A DNA stretch of 46,413 bases, taken from assembly GCA_017453465.1 (NCBI GenBank), contig JAFTEV010000048.1:1-46413 (forward strand). The letters are read 5' to 3'. Made by a program: the position numbers and the translations under genes. How positions within the stretch are numbered: position 1 is the stretch's first letter; every line of letters begins with the position of its first letter. The DNA is from Bacteroidaceae bacterium (lineage in GTDB: Bacteria; Bacteroidota; Bacteroidia; Bacteroidales; Bacteroidaceae). Shown here one piece after another: positions 119-9,752 of the stretch. Below the pieces are notes generated by a model. It was not told the origin of the DNA. It was given only the letters and a program-made list of their open reading frames with translations, and did no database searches.

Positions 119-214
119 TCAAAGCGTTAAAGTTGGGTTAATTACTTGTGCCTGGGCCGTTGTGGTCAGCACGATGGCTGCAAGGAGCAGCAGAAAGCGT
201 CGAAAAGGTTTCAT
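119..214 (-). CDS. 31-residue signal-peptide-only ORF
   Basis: The ATG at 214-212 opens a 31-residue frame ending with TGA at 121-119. The product is a basic start (MKPFRR), a hydrophobic core (FLLLLAAIVL) and a TTTAQA cleavage-like site, followed by only nine residues, QVINPTLTL. It has a very good promoter 30 bases upstream, with both -33 and -7 elements at consensus spacing. It is either the stump of a secreted protein cut off by a stop or deletion, or a real tiny secreted peptide. No homologous downstream frame is visible between 118 and 22, which favours a deletion remnant or a true mini-gene over a simple point nonsense mutation. Confidence 0.45.
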   Translation of the reverse strand: MKPFRRFLLLLAAIVLTTTAQAQVINPTLTL

Positions 215-245
215 AATCGTATCGATTTATGGTACTAAATTGCTG

Positions 246-277
246 CAAAGGTATATCACAGGAACGGAAAAAGCAAA
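246..277 (-). promoter_or_regulatory. Consensus promoter for the signal-peptide ORF
   Basis: Minus strand: TTTG at 277-274, a 20-base spacer, then TACCTTTG at 253-246. This is a full match to the Bacteroidota TTTG-N19-21-TAnnTTTG promoter. Expected transcription start is near 240, leaving a leader of about 26 bases before the ATG at 214. Confidence 0.7.
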
Positions 278-430
278 TTTATTGGAGAGAAAAAGGAGGG
301 CAAATATAATATATATAGGAAACACACCCTATTTAGAAATAAAATAGTGCATATCACCTTTGATCACCTCTTTTCAGGGTATTTTATTTAATTTTTTATC
401 TTAATAGGCTTGTAATTCGAAAATTATATC

Positions 431-438
431 TAATTTTG
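431..438 (+). promoter_or_regulatory. Promoter -7 box TAATTTTG for the DUF488 cassette
   Basis: TAATTTTG followed by C matches TAnnTTTG and lies 20 bases before the ATG at 459. The -33 region has no clear TTTG. It is the only good promoter seen before the three genes 459-2860, which fits one transcript. Confidence 0.55.
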
Positions 439-458
439 CAAACAAAAAAAGTAATAAT

Positions 459-1091
459 ATGAATAACTATAGACTATATAGTGTAGGACATTCCAATCAA
501 TCACAGGAAGATTTTTTACAATTACTATTTGCACATGGTGTAAATTGCATTGTAGATGTCCGTAGTGTACCCGCTAGCAAATACACACCACAATTTAATT
601 TGGAACCATTGAAATGGTTTTTAAAAAGTCACAACATTCAATATTTACATTTTGGTGATGAATTTGGGGCAAGACGTATGGACTGTCTGGATTCTAACGA
701 ACAGGTAAATTTCGAGATGGCTGTGGAAACACCTAACTTTAAACATGGTGTGAAAAGACTAATGAAAGGTTTGGAGAAAGGATATTGTATTTCTCTTATG
801 TGTTCAGAGGCAAATCCGCTGGAATGTCATCGATTCTCGCTTGTCTCCCGCTATTTCTACGACAACGGCCTGGATGTGCAGCATATCTTGAAAGGCGCGG
901 AACTGGCACCGCACAAGACTCTGGAGGATGAGATGATTCAAGAGTATCTTCATGCCAAGAAGCATCGTCTGCCAGAGGTTGACCTGTTGTTTGGCACATA
1001 CACGAAAAACGACCAGCGACGGGATGCCTATCGGCTGAAGAACAAGGAGATTGGATATAAGCCTCAGTTGGAATTAGAAGAAATATATTGA
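459..1091 (+). CDS. DUF488 domain protein, first copy (210 aa)
   Basis: DUF488 family by its pattern: an N-terminal YSVGHSNQS (about residues 7-15), a strand ending in VDVRSVPAS (32-40), and the signature Cys115...Cys123-His-Arg in MCSEANPLECHR. The family is small and uncharacterised; the conserved Cys and CHR residues look like a catalytic or metal/nucleotide-binding site, but no reaction is established. It is followed at once by a second DUF488 gene, whose ATG lies two bases after this stop, and then by a large companion protein. The coding sequence is odd: the first 350 or so bases are AT-rich like the region to the left, while from about position 815 it turns GC-rich like the housekeeping genes. 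The start ATG fits the promoter at 431-438. Confidence 0.85.
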   Translation: MNNYRLYSVGHSNQSQEDFLQLLFAHGVNCIVDVRSVPASKYTPQFNLEPLKWFLKSHNIQYLHFGDEFGARRMDCLDSNEQVNFEMAVETPNFKHGVKRLMKGLEKGYCISLMCSEANPLECHRFSLVSRYFYDNGLDVQHILKGAELAPHKTLEDEMIQEYLHAKKHRLPEVDLLFGTYTKNDQRRDAYRLKNKEIGYKPQLELEEIY

Positions 1092-1093
1092 CT

Positions 1094-1537
1094 ATGATAA
1101 CGCTTTATACGATTGGATTTACGAAGAAGAGTGCCGCACAGTTCTTCAATCTGCTGCGCGACAACCATATAAAACAGCTGGTCGATGTCCGCATCAGCAA
1201 TAGCAGCCAGTTGGCCGGCTTTGCCAAAGGAAAGGATTTGGAGTTCTTCGTGAAGGAGATTTGCCATATCCCCTACAAGCACATCACCGACTTTGCCCCC
1301 ACCAAGGACTTGCTCGACAAGTGGCACAAGGAGGAAGTGACGTGGCTGGAGTATGAGGACATTTATACAACCATGTTGAAAGAACGAAACATTCTGCGAA
1401 AATATGGGGTGAAACAGTTTGACGGCGCATGTTTCCTATGCAGTGAAGAGATGCCAGAGAATTGTCACCGTCGGCTGTTGGCCGAATACATGAAGAAACA
1501 TTCTACGGAAAATATTCGGATTGTTCATTTACTGTAA
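1094..1537 (+). CDS. DUF488 domain protein, second copy (147 aa)
   Basis: A shorter DUF488 protein with the same landmarks as its neighbour: YTIGFTKKS (residues 5-13), LVDVRISNSSQLAGF (29-43) and CSEEMPENCHRR with Cys116, Cys124-His125-Arg126. The ATG at 1094 is preferred over a TTG two codons earlier that would overlap the upstream stop. The two copies are clearly diverged paralogues, not a recent tandem duplication. The tight spacing suggests translational coupling and possibly a hetero-oligomer, which is inference. The sequence is richer in GC than the genes on either side. Confidence 0.85.
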   Translation: MITLYTIGFTKKSAAQFFNLLRDNHIKQLVDVRISNSSQLAGFAKGKDLEFFVKEICHIPYKHITDFAPTKDLLDKWHKEEVTWLEYEDIYTTMLKERNILRKYGVKQFDGACFLCSEEMPENCHRRLLAEYMKKHSTENIRIVHLL

Positions 1538-1561
1538 CAAACAATCAACAAAAGAGTTCTA

Positions 1562-2860
1562 ATGGACAAAATAATCGAAATTGATGACAATTGGGAGGAA
1601 CTTCTTTCTTTAAATATTATAAAGAAAGGGGATAGTCTCGAAGGCATAACTTTTGTAACCGATGGAGAAAAGTGGGGGGCGATGTGTTTAGACAATCCAA
1701 TAATTCCCATTAAGTATGACAGTATATGTTTTTTGTCTAAAATGAATACTGATGAAGATCTTCATATCGTATGTGAGATAAATAATAAATATGACATTTT
1801 TGATTACTATGGGAATCCAGAATATGTAGGTTTAGCCAATTATGACGGAAGAGACTTCCGTTGCCATGAAAAACGCTTTTTTATTTGTTTAGCAAATTCG
1901 TATAAACGAGGAGGGAGATGTATTGCCGGAGTTGAAATAGATTCTAACAATTCAATTTTGTTTAACAATAATGGAAATCCAAAGTGGATTCGTCCTATTG
2001 AAACATATACACAATATGGAGAAATCCCTAATAACATTGCCTGTAACATCAAATTACTATCTTCTGTAACCCTAAAACATGTTGTGGGTTATCCTCAAAC
2101 TGTACATCGTGAGAACGTGTCGTATGTAGAGATAGAGGCAAACCCATTACCCTTTCATGCAGATTCATCATTTTTAAACCAGTTTGTCGACAAAGTTCAC
2201 CAGTCTATTTTTGGTAATCGAGGAAAAGCTGTTTCTGTTGACATGGCATCTAGGCTTGATTATTCACTTATGTTTATACATGTTCAGAATGCGAGTGCTT
2301 ATATTGACGAGGACAGAGAAAGGTCGAAGAACCGAATGAAATTTATCTATTATGGAACAGAATATGAATTCCCTATTACAGACCCAATGTTTTTAGACAG
2401 CTTTAAAAGAGAACCTGAACGTTTTGCAAATATCCCAGACGTTTATCTAACAATCTCCCTTGGATTAGAGTTTGAAGGTTGGCATCATAAGTTGATAGCA
2501 GGAGTGATAATCCCGACAGATTCATTAGAGAACGAAAATAACGAAAATAGAACATCCCAACCCAAAGCATCAGATTGGTTCAATGAATATGAACAAGAGT
2601 TAGAACGACTCCTTGACCAAAAGGCAGACATAGAAGAACAAATAAATGAATTGCGACAAAAACTATTAAAACAAATGGAGAGTTATGGAGTAGAAAAAAT
2701 ACAGTCACATCAGTTTTCTATTAGCTATACTCCAACAAAAACCGTCATGCAATTTGATAGAAAAGCATTCAAAACAGAGAATGAAGATCTCTATTTCTGT
2801 TATTGCAAACCTAAGCAAAGAGAAGCTTCTATCATTGTAAAAAGAATCAAAAAAGAATAA
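1562..2860 (+). CDS. WG-repeat / dual-OB-like / coiled-coil fusion protein (432 aa)
   Basis: Third gene of the DUF488 cassette. The N-terminal part (about 25-90) resembles WG beta-repeats (GEKWGAM...IIPIKYDSI). The centre (about 105-318) carries ICLANSYKRGGRCIAGVEI (108-126), then WIRPI (142-146) and a second block ending HHKLIAGVI (308-316); this is how I recall the 'dual OB' (DuOB) domain proteins that accompany DUF488 genes. Residues 338-375 are a charged coiled coil. The tail (about 376-432), with QFSISYTPTKTVMQFDRKAF, resembles the C-terminal part of phage Gp157-like proteins. OB folds usually bind nucleic acid, so a role in nucleic-acid recognition or defence is plausible but not shown. 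The gene is strongly AT-rich relative to the core genes, a sign of transfer. There are 24 bases between the previous stop and this ATG. Confidence 0.65.
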   Translation: MDKIIEIDDNWEELLSLNIIKKGDSLEGITFVTDGEKWGAMCLDNPIIPIKYDSICFLSKMNTDEDLHIVCEINNKYDIFDYYGNPEYVGLANYDGRDFRCHEKRFFICLANSYKRGGRCIAGVEIDSNNSILFNNNGNPKWIRPIETYTQYGEIPNNIACNIKLLSSVTLKHVVGYPQTVHRENVSYVEIEANPLPFHADSSFLNQFVDKVHQSIFGNRGKAVSVDMASRLDYSLMFIHVQNASAYIDEDRERSKNRMKFIYYGTEYEFPITDPMFLDSFKREPERFANIPDVYLTISLGLEFEGWHHKLIAGVIIPTDSLENENNENRTSQPKASDWFNEYEQELERLLDQKADIEEQINELRQKLLKQMESYGVEKIQSHQFSISYTPTKTVMQFDRKAFKTENEDLYFCYCKPKQREASIIVKRIKKE

Positions 2861-2930
2861 CAACATCAAGAATCCAACAATCTACACATAATGTCCAACA
2901 TCGTCAAAAAGGTTTGGGTTAATAGACATA

Positions 2931-2974
2931 AAAAAGCACTGCTTTAGTACATTGGTGGCTACGCAGTGCTTTTT
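2931..2974. terminator. Bidirectional terminator between DUF488 cassette and mscL
   Basis: A perfect 12-bp inverted repeat: AAAAAGCACTGC at 2931-2942 and GCAGTGCTTTTT at 2963-2974, with a 20-base loop. A/T runs at both ends let it act for both converging transcripts. Confidence 0.8.
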
Positions 2975-2994
2975 CATGTAAGTTCGAAGTCCGA

Positions 2995-3456
2995 TTACTT
3001 CTTCTTCAGAATATCGCGAATCTCGGTGAGCAGCACTTCCTCCTTGGTTGGTTCTGGTGCAGGCTCTGGCTCGACGGGCTTCTCGGCCTCCTTCTTCTTG
3101 GCCAGCTCGGTGAGGCGTGTGATGCCCTTAATCATGAAGAAGATGGCGAGGGCTACGATGAGGAAGTCGATGATGTTCTGGATGAACATGCCGTAGTTCA
3201 GGGTAACAGCCTCGGTAGCTGCAGCCACTTCGTTGCCCAGCTCGTCCACCTGTACGGGGACAGCATCCTTCAGCACCAGCTTCAGGTCCTTGAAGTCCAC
3301 GCCGCCGGTGAGCACGCCGATGGGGGGCATGATAACGTCGCTGACGAGCGAGCTTACAATCTTGCCAAATGCGCCGCCGATGATGACACCGACTGCCATG
3401 TCAACTACATTGCCCTTGAGAGCAAATGCCTTGAAGTCTTCAATAAATTTACCCAT
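2995..3456 (-). CDS. mscL: Large-conductance mechanosensitive channel MscL
   Basis: MscL forms a homopentameric inner-membrane pore that opens under membrane tension and releases solutes during osmotic downshock. Visible hallmarks are the N-terminal amphipathic segment ([18 protein letters not shown]), the glycine-rich first membrane helix ([26 protein letters not shown], about 22-47) and the second helix ([19 protein letters not shown], about 91-109). The cytoplasmic end has a proline/glutamate spacer (EPEPAPEP) and a terminal helix [11 protein letters not shown]. At 153 residues it is slightly longer than usual because of the periplasmic loop and this linker. It is divergent from gapA and shares the promoter region with it; it ends against the bidirectional terminator at 2931-2974. 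Confidence 0.97.
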
Positions 3457-6323: not shown

Positions 6324-6827
6324 TTATTCTCCTATGGTGAATCGTTCTGCATGAGTGGTCACATAGCTGGCCACCTGCGGCGTAGCCTCTTCCTGATGGT
6401 CGTCGAGGAAGTCGTCGCCCAGTTCGTTCAGCGTCTCCAGCTGTTCGTACAGAGCCATAAACTCCTCGTCCGTCATATCGCGCTCCAGTTCCTCACGGTG
6501 GCGGTGGTATTCCGACTTCACGCTGTAGAGCAGCTTGCTGAGTTCGCGCATCCCCCACTCTTTCTTCAGCACGTAGGGGAAAGGTCCCTCCAGCACGTAG
6601 CCAGCAAAGCCGTTCTGGATGAGCTGTATGAATCCGCCCTCCATCACTTCGTCGAGCAGGTAGCGGTAGGCCAGCAGTGTATGCTGGTCGGTGGTGAGCT
6701 GCCCCATGTTCTCTGGGGTCAGCCCGCCACCGAGGTGCGCCAAATACTGGTCTGTAATGTATGTGATGAAGTCTGCCGCTGGCAGTTCATCATACTTCTG
6801 CCGTATTTCTGTCTGGGTCAATGTCAC
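6324..6827 (-). CDS. DUF4375 (DMP19-like) protein
   Basis: 167 residues with the DUF4375 pattern: a helix with LTTDQHTLLAYRYLLDEVM, then GGFIQLIQNGFAGYV, and later MRELSKLLYSVKSEYHRHREE. The C-terminal third is very acidic. The family is widespread and of unknown biochemical function, sometimes described as DNA-mimic-like (DMP19). It lies 18 bases after the polysaccharide-export lipoprotein gene and 6 bases before smpB, all on the minus strand, so one transcript is likely. Confidence 0.7.
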   Translation of the reverse strand: MTLTQTEIRQKYDELPAADFITYITDQYLAHLGGGLTPENMGQLTTDQHTLLAYRYLLDEVMEGGFIQLIQNGFAGYVLEGPFPYVLKKEWGMRELSKLLYSVKSEYHRHREELERDMTDEEFMALYEQLETLNELGDDFLDDHQEEATPQVASYVTTHAERFTIGE

Positions 6828-8570: not shown

Positions 8571-9752
8571 ATGGCAAACAAGAGAGATTACTACGAAGTC
8601 CTGGGCGTACAGAAGGGCGCAACGGACGATGAAATAAAGAAAGCCTACAAGAAACTGGCCATCAAGTATCACCCAGACCGTAATCCGGGTGACAAGACTG
8701 CTGAGGAGAAATTCAAGGAGGCGGCAGAGGCTTACGAAGTGCTGCACGACCCGAAGAAACGTCAGCAGTATGACCAGTTTGGCTTTGAGGGTCTGGGCGA
8801 TGCCGGTGGTTTCGGTGGCGGACAAGGCATGGACATGAACGACATCTTCAGCCACTTTGGTGACATCTTCGAGGAGATGGGCTTCGGTGGTGGCCGTGGA
8901 TTTGGCGGATTCGGTGGATTTGGCGGCAGTGGTCGTCGGCAGCAGAAGCCTGTCTTCAAGGGCCGTGACCAGCGACTGCGCGTTGAACTCACTCTGGAGG
9001 AGATTGTCAACGGCTGCACGAAGAAGTTCAAAATCAAGAACGACGTGACTTGTGACCACTGCCACGGTACGGGCTCGGCAGACGGCAAAATTGACCAGTG
9101 CCCCACGTGCCACGGTTCGGGCTATGTCATCCGCAGCCAGCAGAGCATCTTCGGCATGATGCAGAGCCAGAGTGTCTGCCCCGACTGTCACGGCGAAGGC
9201 ACAGTCATCAAAAACAGATGTAGCCATTGTCATGGTGAAGGCATTATGCCAGGCGAGACACTGGTGGAGGTGAACTTCCCTGCCGGTCTGCAAGAGGGCA
9301 TGGTGCTCACCCTGGACGGCAAGGGCGGAGCCGGACGACACAACGGTGTGAACGGCGACCTGCAAATCATCATCAAGGAGAAGCCCAACGCAGAATTGCT
9401 GCGCGACGGAAACGACCTCATCTACAACCTACTGCTGAGCATTCCACAGGCTGTACTGGGTTGCACCGTGGAGGTTCCCACGGTGGATGGCAAGGCACGA
9501 CTCACCATTCCGGCTGGCACACAGCCTGGCACCGTGATGCGACTGCGAGGCAAGGGTGTGCCACAGGTGCAGGGCTACAACCGTGGTCAGCGTGGTGACG
9601 AACTGGTCAACATCAGTGTCTATATGCCACAGACCTTGAGCCGAGATGAGAAGCAGGCCCTTGAGAAGATGCAGCACAGCGACAACTTCACACCACAGGA
9701 GAGCGTGAAGCAGAGCATCTTCAATCGATTCAAGAGCTATTTCAGCAAATAG
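8571..9752 (+). CDS. dnaJ: Chaperone DnaJ
   Basis: Full-length type I Hsp40 (393 aa). J domain 1-70 with HPD at 34-36, which stimulates DnaK's ATPase; Gly/Phe-rich linker about 75-120; four zinc-binding CxxCxGxG repeats starting at Cys161, Cys177, Cys203 and Cys217; then two substrate-binding beta domains. It delivers unfolded clients to DnaK. Directly downstream of grpE, consistent with co-expression; dnaK itself is not in the window. Confidence 0.98.

Follow-up and report, generated by a model that had tools for sequence, protein, structure and literature searches.

The window analysed here is a stretch of 46,413 nucleotides from a Bacteroidaceae bacterium (assembly GCA_017453465.1, contig JAFTEV010000048.1, positions 1 to 46,413), and this work concerns three genes near its start, which encode two DUF488 proteins (named DUFa and DUFb in this study) and a DuOB protein. 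From the list of open reading frames (ORFs) and the sequence, the three plus-strand ORFs formed one tight operon in the order DUFa, DUFb and DuOB gene, with gaps of 2 bp between the first two genes (counted from the ATG at 1094) and 24 bp between the last two. The listed start of DUFb was a TTG at 1088 (1088-1537, 149 aa), and the in-frame ATG at 1094 was used instead (147 aa). An earlier reading of this DNA, made from the sequence only, had described three co-oriented and tightly spaced genes, and this description was correct. To judge from the nearest matches, the genome is a Prevotella-like, gut-type one of the Bacteroidales. The features of the locus are as follows:

459..1091, plus strand, DUFa, DUF488 protein 1 of 210 aa, PDC-M45B-like (ORF list, Pfam, PADLOC)
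1094..1537, plus strand, DUFb, DUF488 protein 2 of 147 aa, PDC-M45C-like (ORF list, Pfam, PADLOC)
1562..2860, plus strand, DuOB gene, 432 aa (ORF list, Pfam, PADLOC PDC-M45A)
1880..2506, plus strand, DuOB domain, residues 107-315 of the protein (PF22557 genome search, 113.8 bits)
296..2976, no strand, stretch without counterpart in the relative G447, containing just the trio (flank alignment)
2926..2979, no strand, inverted repeat with 17-nt arms, between the DuOB gene and a convergent gene which we take to be mscL (repeat search)

An alignment of DUFb was used as query to assess the conservation of the trio. At least 578 genome-contig matches were obtained, the best 80 of which were kept and combined with 17 viral-contig loci to give a panel of 97 loci. 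A DuOB gene lay within 2.5 kb of DUFb in 93 of the 97 loci, on the same strand in 92 of these 93, and a second DUF488 gene or a DUF4326 gene was present in 95. DuOB was accompanied by a second DUF488 gene in 76 loci and by a DUF4326 gene in 15, and same-strand gaps within the cassettes were 30 bp or less (overlaps included) in 176 of 191 cases. The three genes are therefore conserved together in other genomes, as the idea of a cassette in the sequence-only reading required. Four loci had a second DUF488 gene without DuOB (L059, L060, L076, which ends 249 bases past the match, and L113, in which the second DUF488 gene is in pieces). DuOB alone lay beside DUFb in two others, L098, at 172 bases from the contig edge, and L130, in which both DUF488 domains are naturally fused in one ORF. 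When DuOB was taken as the starting point, both DUF488 genes adjoined it in eight of 10 other genomes, one did so in a ninth and none in the tenth; in this check, DUFb was broken in L028, L026 held only DUFa with DuOB, and L033 held only a DuOB, which was below the cut-off. The lineages represented were Bacteroidota, Bacillota, Pseudomonadota, Cyanobacteriota, Chloroflexota, Actinomycetota and archaea. A scan of genome contigs with the DuOB protein gave no match, and no useful result was obtained by scanning viral contigs with the DuOB alignment or by querying E. coli genomes for the cassette of a 4.2-kb plasmid. Four loci (L024, L050, L053 and L054) had two DuOB genes, one on either side of the DUF488 pair, and an uncharacterised gene of about 447 aa upstream, the L050 copy of which had no Pfam match at 1e-5.

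Both DUF488 proteins passed the curated cut-off of Pfam DUF488 (PF04343; 22.2 bits), DUFa with 71.0 bits (1.8e-19) and DUFb with 71.8 bits (1e-19), and for DUF488-N3a (PF22751; cut-off 27) DUFb scored above the cut-off (32.8 bits) and DUFa below it (18.2 bits). The Cys...CHR signature pointed out in the sequence-only reading was present in both proteins, in the loops C115-x-E117-x5-C123-H-R125 of DUFa and C116-x-E118-x5-C124-H-R126 of DUFb. The loop C-x-E-x5-C-H-R was kept in 177 of the 178 DUF488 ORFs of the 97 loci and was lacking only from a 91-aa fragment in L113; this conservation suggests that activity is retained in both enzymes. A tree of 25 loci separated the DUFa and DUFb kinds into two clades of 25 rows each with support of 100/100, so that the two copies look old and distinct. 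We take DUF488 to belong to the rhodanese-phosphatase superfamily, of which a catalytic Cys and an Arg in one loop are presumably characteristic; both residues are kept in the DUF488 proteins of the window. A study by Burroughs and Aravind (NAR Genom Bioinform 5:lqad029, 2023) is said to have delineated a RapZ-C/DUF488/DUF4326 clade in this superfamily and to have predicted DNA-end processing in conflict systems. No solved structural relative of the DUF488 proteins was found by sequence at E 0.01, and alignment on the natural DUF488-DUF488 fusion was uninformative, since both DUF488 kinds fell on its second half (invariant columns). DUF488 was present in six of 14 control genomes, including E. 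coli. A third, weaker DUF488 gene (35.7 bits) was observed in the window's own genome, away from the cassette (G000:C104:14767-15090).

The 432-aa protein matched Pfam DuOB (PF22557) over profile positions 3-210 of 210, with 112 bits (5.3e-32) against a cut-off of 27. Its tail (about residues 342-400) was a marginal match to Siphovirus Gp157 in the whole protein (29.3 bits, 1e-6; cut-off 28.6) and scored 32.6 bits when scanned alone. Of the composition proposed by the sequence-only reading, namely WG-like repeats, a dual-OB-like region and a coiled coil with a Gp157-like tail, the dual-OB part was recovered by Pfam and the tail only just, but the WG-like repeats were rejected as unsupported because residues 1-106 matched no Pfam family at E values up to 1. 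Among 13 other DuOB proteins in the first alignment, an N-terminal extension was evident only in L030, in which it was shorter; the DuOB protein of L072, a locus cut by a contig end, carried a long and unrelated-looking one. Shorter DuOB proteins had Gp157-like, HTH_40 or weak Myb-like tails, and no solved structural relative of the DuOB protein was found by sequence at E 0.1. Eleven DuOB ORFs were longer than 600 aa, and seven of these were scanned by Pfam. Four were fusions to a PIF1-like helicase (L041, L057, L061 and L064), two were fusions to RecQ (L106, 6443-9349, with DuOB last, and L108, 1179-4142, with DuOB first), and one was a fusion to DUF1351 (L080). The two RecQ fusions have opposite domain orders and come from different phyla. 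Since DuOB is fused to helicases, DNA is the most likely target of the module.

PADLOC identified the DuOB protein as PDC-M45A (2e-26), DUFa as PDC-M45B (5.3e-50) and DUFb as PDC-M45C (1.9e-56). As its three proteins are named in this way, the trio is already catalogued as the candidate defence system PDC-M45 and is not new. The "unknown function" of the sequence-only reading thus holds for the reaction but not for the cassette, which was already listed. To our knowledge, as far as the literature searched extends, DUF488 is widespread and has no settled reaction. The three components of PDC-M45 are present and adjacent in one operon in the window, and the window copy adds an N-terminal extension of 103 residues before DuOB and the Gp157-like tail. 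PDC-M45 carries no description in the PADLOC library output, and no paper naming it was found in the literature searched. Models of another candidate, PDC-M19A, matched both DUF488 proteins far more weakly (best 5e-14 and 1e-15), and no M19A partner was sought. Among the DUF488 papers found, no title or opening of an abstract gave a defence role, one of these papers being on a CRISPR system and one on a phage. A fusion of DUF488-HTH to a CTP-binding ParB-type fold is described in an excerpt of another (PMC12704722).

The insertion of the trio was assessed by alignment of its flanks. In G447, the counterparts of window positions 126-295 and 2977 onward (mscL and gapA) were located 117 bp apart without the trio, at 9548-9709 and 9827 onward of locus L161. 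Because both flanks are so placed, the segment 296-2976, with just three genes, looks like an accessory insert or a replacement. This empty site comes from one genome, and its left edge is less certain because the left flank corresponds to the beginning of a gene that is repeated in G447; window positions 137-295 matched two copies in L161, at 6574-6732 with 91% identity and, on the mscL side, at 9560-9709 with 88%. No trio gene was found at the mscL loci of 29 relatives among ORFs of at least 80 aa and in up to 1.5 kb of flank, several of these loci being cut by contig ends. The distribution of DuOB was patchy: none of the 12 same-genus genomes listed had it, and it was found in five of 201 genomes of the family and in seven of 247 genomes of the phylum (six of the seven over the cut-off), the window's own genome being included in both counts. 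The absence of the trio from the apparently equivalent site of G447, together with plasmid and prophage copies elsewhere, agrees with the mobile accessory nature that had been proposed. Carriage of the window copy by a transposon was considered and rejected, as positions 200-3000 held only short, chance-like repeats and no transposase ORF was seen.

The cassette had been described as AT-rich, which was borne out, but the composition was mosaic: the GC fraction was 0.34 at 459-800, 0.48 at 801-1091, 0.46 in DUFb and 0.32-0.36 in three parts of the DuOB gene, compared with 0.511 for 2995-46413. DNA identity with a rumen locus (L034), counted per approximately 60 positions, was 44-47 over 459-818, 53-60 over 819-1358 and 42-50 thereafter. 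A gene-conversion tract covering the active site of DUFa and most of DUFb is likely. When window positions 459-1537 were compared with L034, jumps of both identity and G+C content were seen inside DUFa (about 810) and inside DUFb (about 1350). Between the window and L034, DUFa was 90% identical, DUFb 91% and DuOB 37%; between L050 and L056 the values were 82%, 91% and 39%. A variable DuOB under near-constant enzymes would fit an exchanged recognition part.

In single cases, copies of the trio were found inside or beside known defence systems. The viral-contig locus L127 (6557-13056) had the order BrxC, trio, PglZ and BrxL by PADLOC, with PglX detected by tblastn, and its DUFb overlapped pglZ by 4 bp. 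In L128, PglX (in two pieces), the trio and BrxL were identified by PADLOC, and PglZ by tblastn. The trio of Mycobacterium gordonae (L109) was followed by GajA and GajB of Gabija, and L023 was located among type III CRISPR genes. The tblastn seeds detected BREX in two loci (L127 and L128) and Gabija in one (L109), 3 of 117 in all, and neither in 20 control regions. As regards mobile elements, the DUF4326 variant was the main cargo of a 4167-bp plasmid, on which the DUF4326 partner (L015), the one tested by Pfam, was an mSLOG-DUF4326 protein. In L116, the DUF4326 variant lay within a head operon of prophage type, between its neck and head-protease genes (PHROGs); we take this operon to be Mu-like. 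A relative of the small plasmid (L016, NC_010259.1, 8197 bp) had an ISEcp1-blaCMY-31 segment between its DuOB ORF and its DUF488 gene.

A different type of neighbour was found on other plasmids. Seventeen plasmid contexts were opened, and eight of these showed no DuOB (three by ORF scan and five by annotation only). UvrA or UvrB adjoined a stand-alone DUF488 in six of the eight (L019, L020, L022, L191, L192 and L193), in islands that also held genes for the formaldehyde response or for glutathione-dependent aldehyde detoxification, and in the other two (L187 and L188) there was no UvrA/UvrB beside DUF488. Five of the six island DUF488 proteins (L192 not included) fell inside cassette DUFb in a tree, in two places, and the branches with good support require at least two label changes between island and cassette DUFb. 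Between the two island kinds, UvrB was 78% identical and DUF488 51-52%, and the DUF488 proteins of the Acinetobacter island and of an Acinetobacter cassette shared 71-72% identity. Two recruitments, or one with a later replacement, are the simplest readings.

Repair genes were also sought near the cassettes. The UvrA and UvrB seeds had no match in any of the 97 cassette loci; the AddA/UvrD seed matched in one of 97 compared with two of 20 control regions. An MGMT-like gene was detected in nine of the 97 loci and a gene presumed to be of glycosylase type in five, and neither was detected in the 20 control regions, a contrast that is post hoc (the seeds having been chosen for their recurrence) and within chance. 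Both genes recur near Bacteroidales cassettes, in few lineages, and the L035 copy of the glycosylase-like ORF matched no Pfam family at 1e-5. In L064 (7514-12881) both immediately preceded the trio on its strand, and in L057, L058, L061 and L062 they were located near DUF488-DUF488-DuOB-PIF1 cassettes. Hits of the PIF1 and RecQ seeds overlap, since the two seeds have HRDC/HTH_40 domains in common.

We give an even chance to the interpretation that the trio is a DNA-end- or lesion-processing, horizontally moving conflict module, most likely anti-phage. The BREX and Gabija placements, with the variable DuOB, indicate use against invaders, and the UvrA/UvrB association indicates adducts or damaged ends as the substrate. 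DuOB would bind an unusual state of DNA, for which single-stranded, recombining, or modified or damaged DNA, or an end, are candidates, by means of its paired OB-like domains and an interchangeable module at the C terminus, which is Gp157-like or Myb/HTH_40-like or consists of an entire RecQ or PIF1-type helicase. It would then recruit two specialised DUF488 enzymes, Cys-dependent and of the rhodanese-phosphatase type, that probably act as a hetero-pair. Their active-site loop would be that of a Cys phosphotransfer enzyme, if the assumed superfamily placement holds, and the pair would probably process phosphoryl groups at DNA ends or adducts, with the result that the replication or protection of invading DNA is blocked. 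The sequence-only reading had likewise proposed nucleic-acid recognition by a cassette that is a mobile accessory or defence module, and this is favoured by the conservation of the trio, the empty site, the BREX and Gabija contexts, the plasmid and prophage copies and the helicase fusions.

A number of observations weigh against an anti-phage module. The BREX and Gabija placements account for only the three loci given above, and L127 and L128 look like near relatives. No family occurred in more than three of 150 flanking genes examined by Pfam (25 of 127 families listed). PADLOC families matched numbered 152 near cassettes and 43 in controls, for 150 proteins each, but enrichment is not proven because the comparison counts models and not genes. 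The case batch of this comparison consisted of genes of 100-700 aa from L034-L097, with 17 loci (14 of them in L034-L097) omitted as near-duplicates or short contigs and with the BREX and Gabija loci coming from separate scans, and the control batch covered 19 of the 20 regions of cassette-bearing genomes. Exchange of modules does not hold as a general rule, as the identities of DUFb and DuOB still correlated over 18 Bacteroidales loci (Spearman 0.63; 0.38 for DUFa and DuOB). In the same loci DuOB was simply less conserved than DUFb (median 40% versus 74%), and most of the outlying DUFb/DuOB identity pairs involved L034. Among isolated phages (50,697 records), no match was found for DuOB (of the window and L127) or for a DUFb relative (L116), and a DUFa relative had one distant match; this result is neutral with regard to defence. 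The literature searched yielded no phage assay of the trio and no biochemistry. In addition, the DUFb relatives beside UvrA/UvrB in formaldehyde islands suggest repair and not phage defence.

This last point belongs to the main and serious rival, a DNA repair module for genotoxic stress, in which DuOB and the helicases would make adducts, crosslinks or blocked ends accessible for removal or trimming by the DUF488 pair, mobility being that of accessory repair. We regard this as possible, if on the whole unlikely. It would account for the UvrA/UvrB islands in six of the eight DuOB-less plasmid contexts, for the two positions of island DUF488 inside the cassette DUFb clade, for UvrB being more alike than DUF488 between the two island kinds, and for the RecQ and PIF1 fusions, and an excerpt of one report describes archaeal plasmids on which a DUF488 protein neighbours RadC and a UvrD-like helicase (PMC9674854). 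However, the cassette loci themselves lacked matches to the UvrA/UvrB seeds, the AddA/UvrD seed matched in only one of them against two of the 20 controls, and prophage cargo, embedding in BREX and adjacency to Gabija are commoner for defence. The MGMT-like and presumed glycosylase-type genes, both upstream of the trio in L064, also speak for repair, but with the reservations on seed choice, few lineages, chance and Pfam assignment given with their counts.

The replacement of one DUF488 by DUF4326 in 15 of the 97 loci, with the mSLOG-DUF4326 protein of L015, raises an alternative that we consider improbable, namely nucleotide or ADP-ribose (ADPr) signalling, with DUF488 and DUF4326 acting on NAD- or ADPr-derived phosphates or on ADP-ribosylated nucleic acid and DuOB as the regulator. 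In excerpts of two sources, DUF4326 is a member of the rhodanese-phosphatase superfamily predicted to act on ADPr phosphates (PMC9503650) and is linked to NAD signalling and DNA modification (PMC7824862). The enzyme fusions of DuOB that were found are, however, DNA helicases, and no Macro, NADAR or ART was present in the 25 of 127 families listed for the 150 neighbours. A cassette that serves the selfish stabilisation of mobile elements, or is toxin-antitoxin-like, would be consistent with the trio variant being the main cargo of the 4167-bp plasmid, but it is very unlikely in view of the three genes, the two enzymes with kept active sites, the helicase fusions and the reduced sets of L026 (DUFa and DuOB) and L033 (DuOB alone).

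With the conflict module as the preferred interpretation, a wider proposal can be put forward tentatively, although we hold it to be rather doubtful. The DUF488 pair may be a new Cys-dependent DNA lesion- or end-processing enzyme that, together with DuOB and helicases of the RecQ/PIF1 type, attacks invading DNA or strips it of protection in defence operons, and of which the second subunit alone was recruited, probably twice, to UvrA/UvrB repair in formaldehyde-response islands, one chemistry thus serving both immunity and the repair of aldehyde damage. If this is true, a catalogue entry without a function becomes a testable enzyme linking phage defence with DNA-adduct repair. The contexts narrow the likely substrate to the DNA states handled by RecQ, PIF1 and UvrA/UvrB, and formaldehyde-type adducts, blocked ends and phage DNA modifications are offered as testable substrates.

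The left flank of the cassette is only 458 bp, because the window begins at a contig end (G000:C31:1). The housekeeping flanks described in the sequence-only reading were accordingly found on the right side, with genes which we take to be mscL and gapA from their sequences, and not on the left. The inverted repeat at 2926-2979 was not among the terminator-like hits in a promoter and terminator scan of 300-3000; it is probably a two-way terminator. A sigma-70 promoter for the trio was rejected, as the sigma-70-type scan of 300-3000 gave no plus-strand site upstream of 459. TAATTTTG at about 431..438 on the plus strand is a candidate Bacteroidetes-type -7 box, the consensus of which we assume to be TAnnTTTG.

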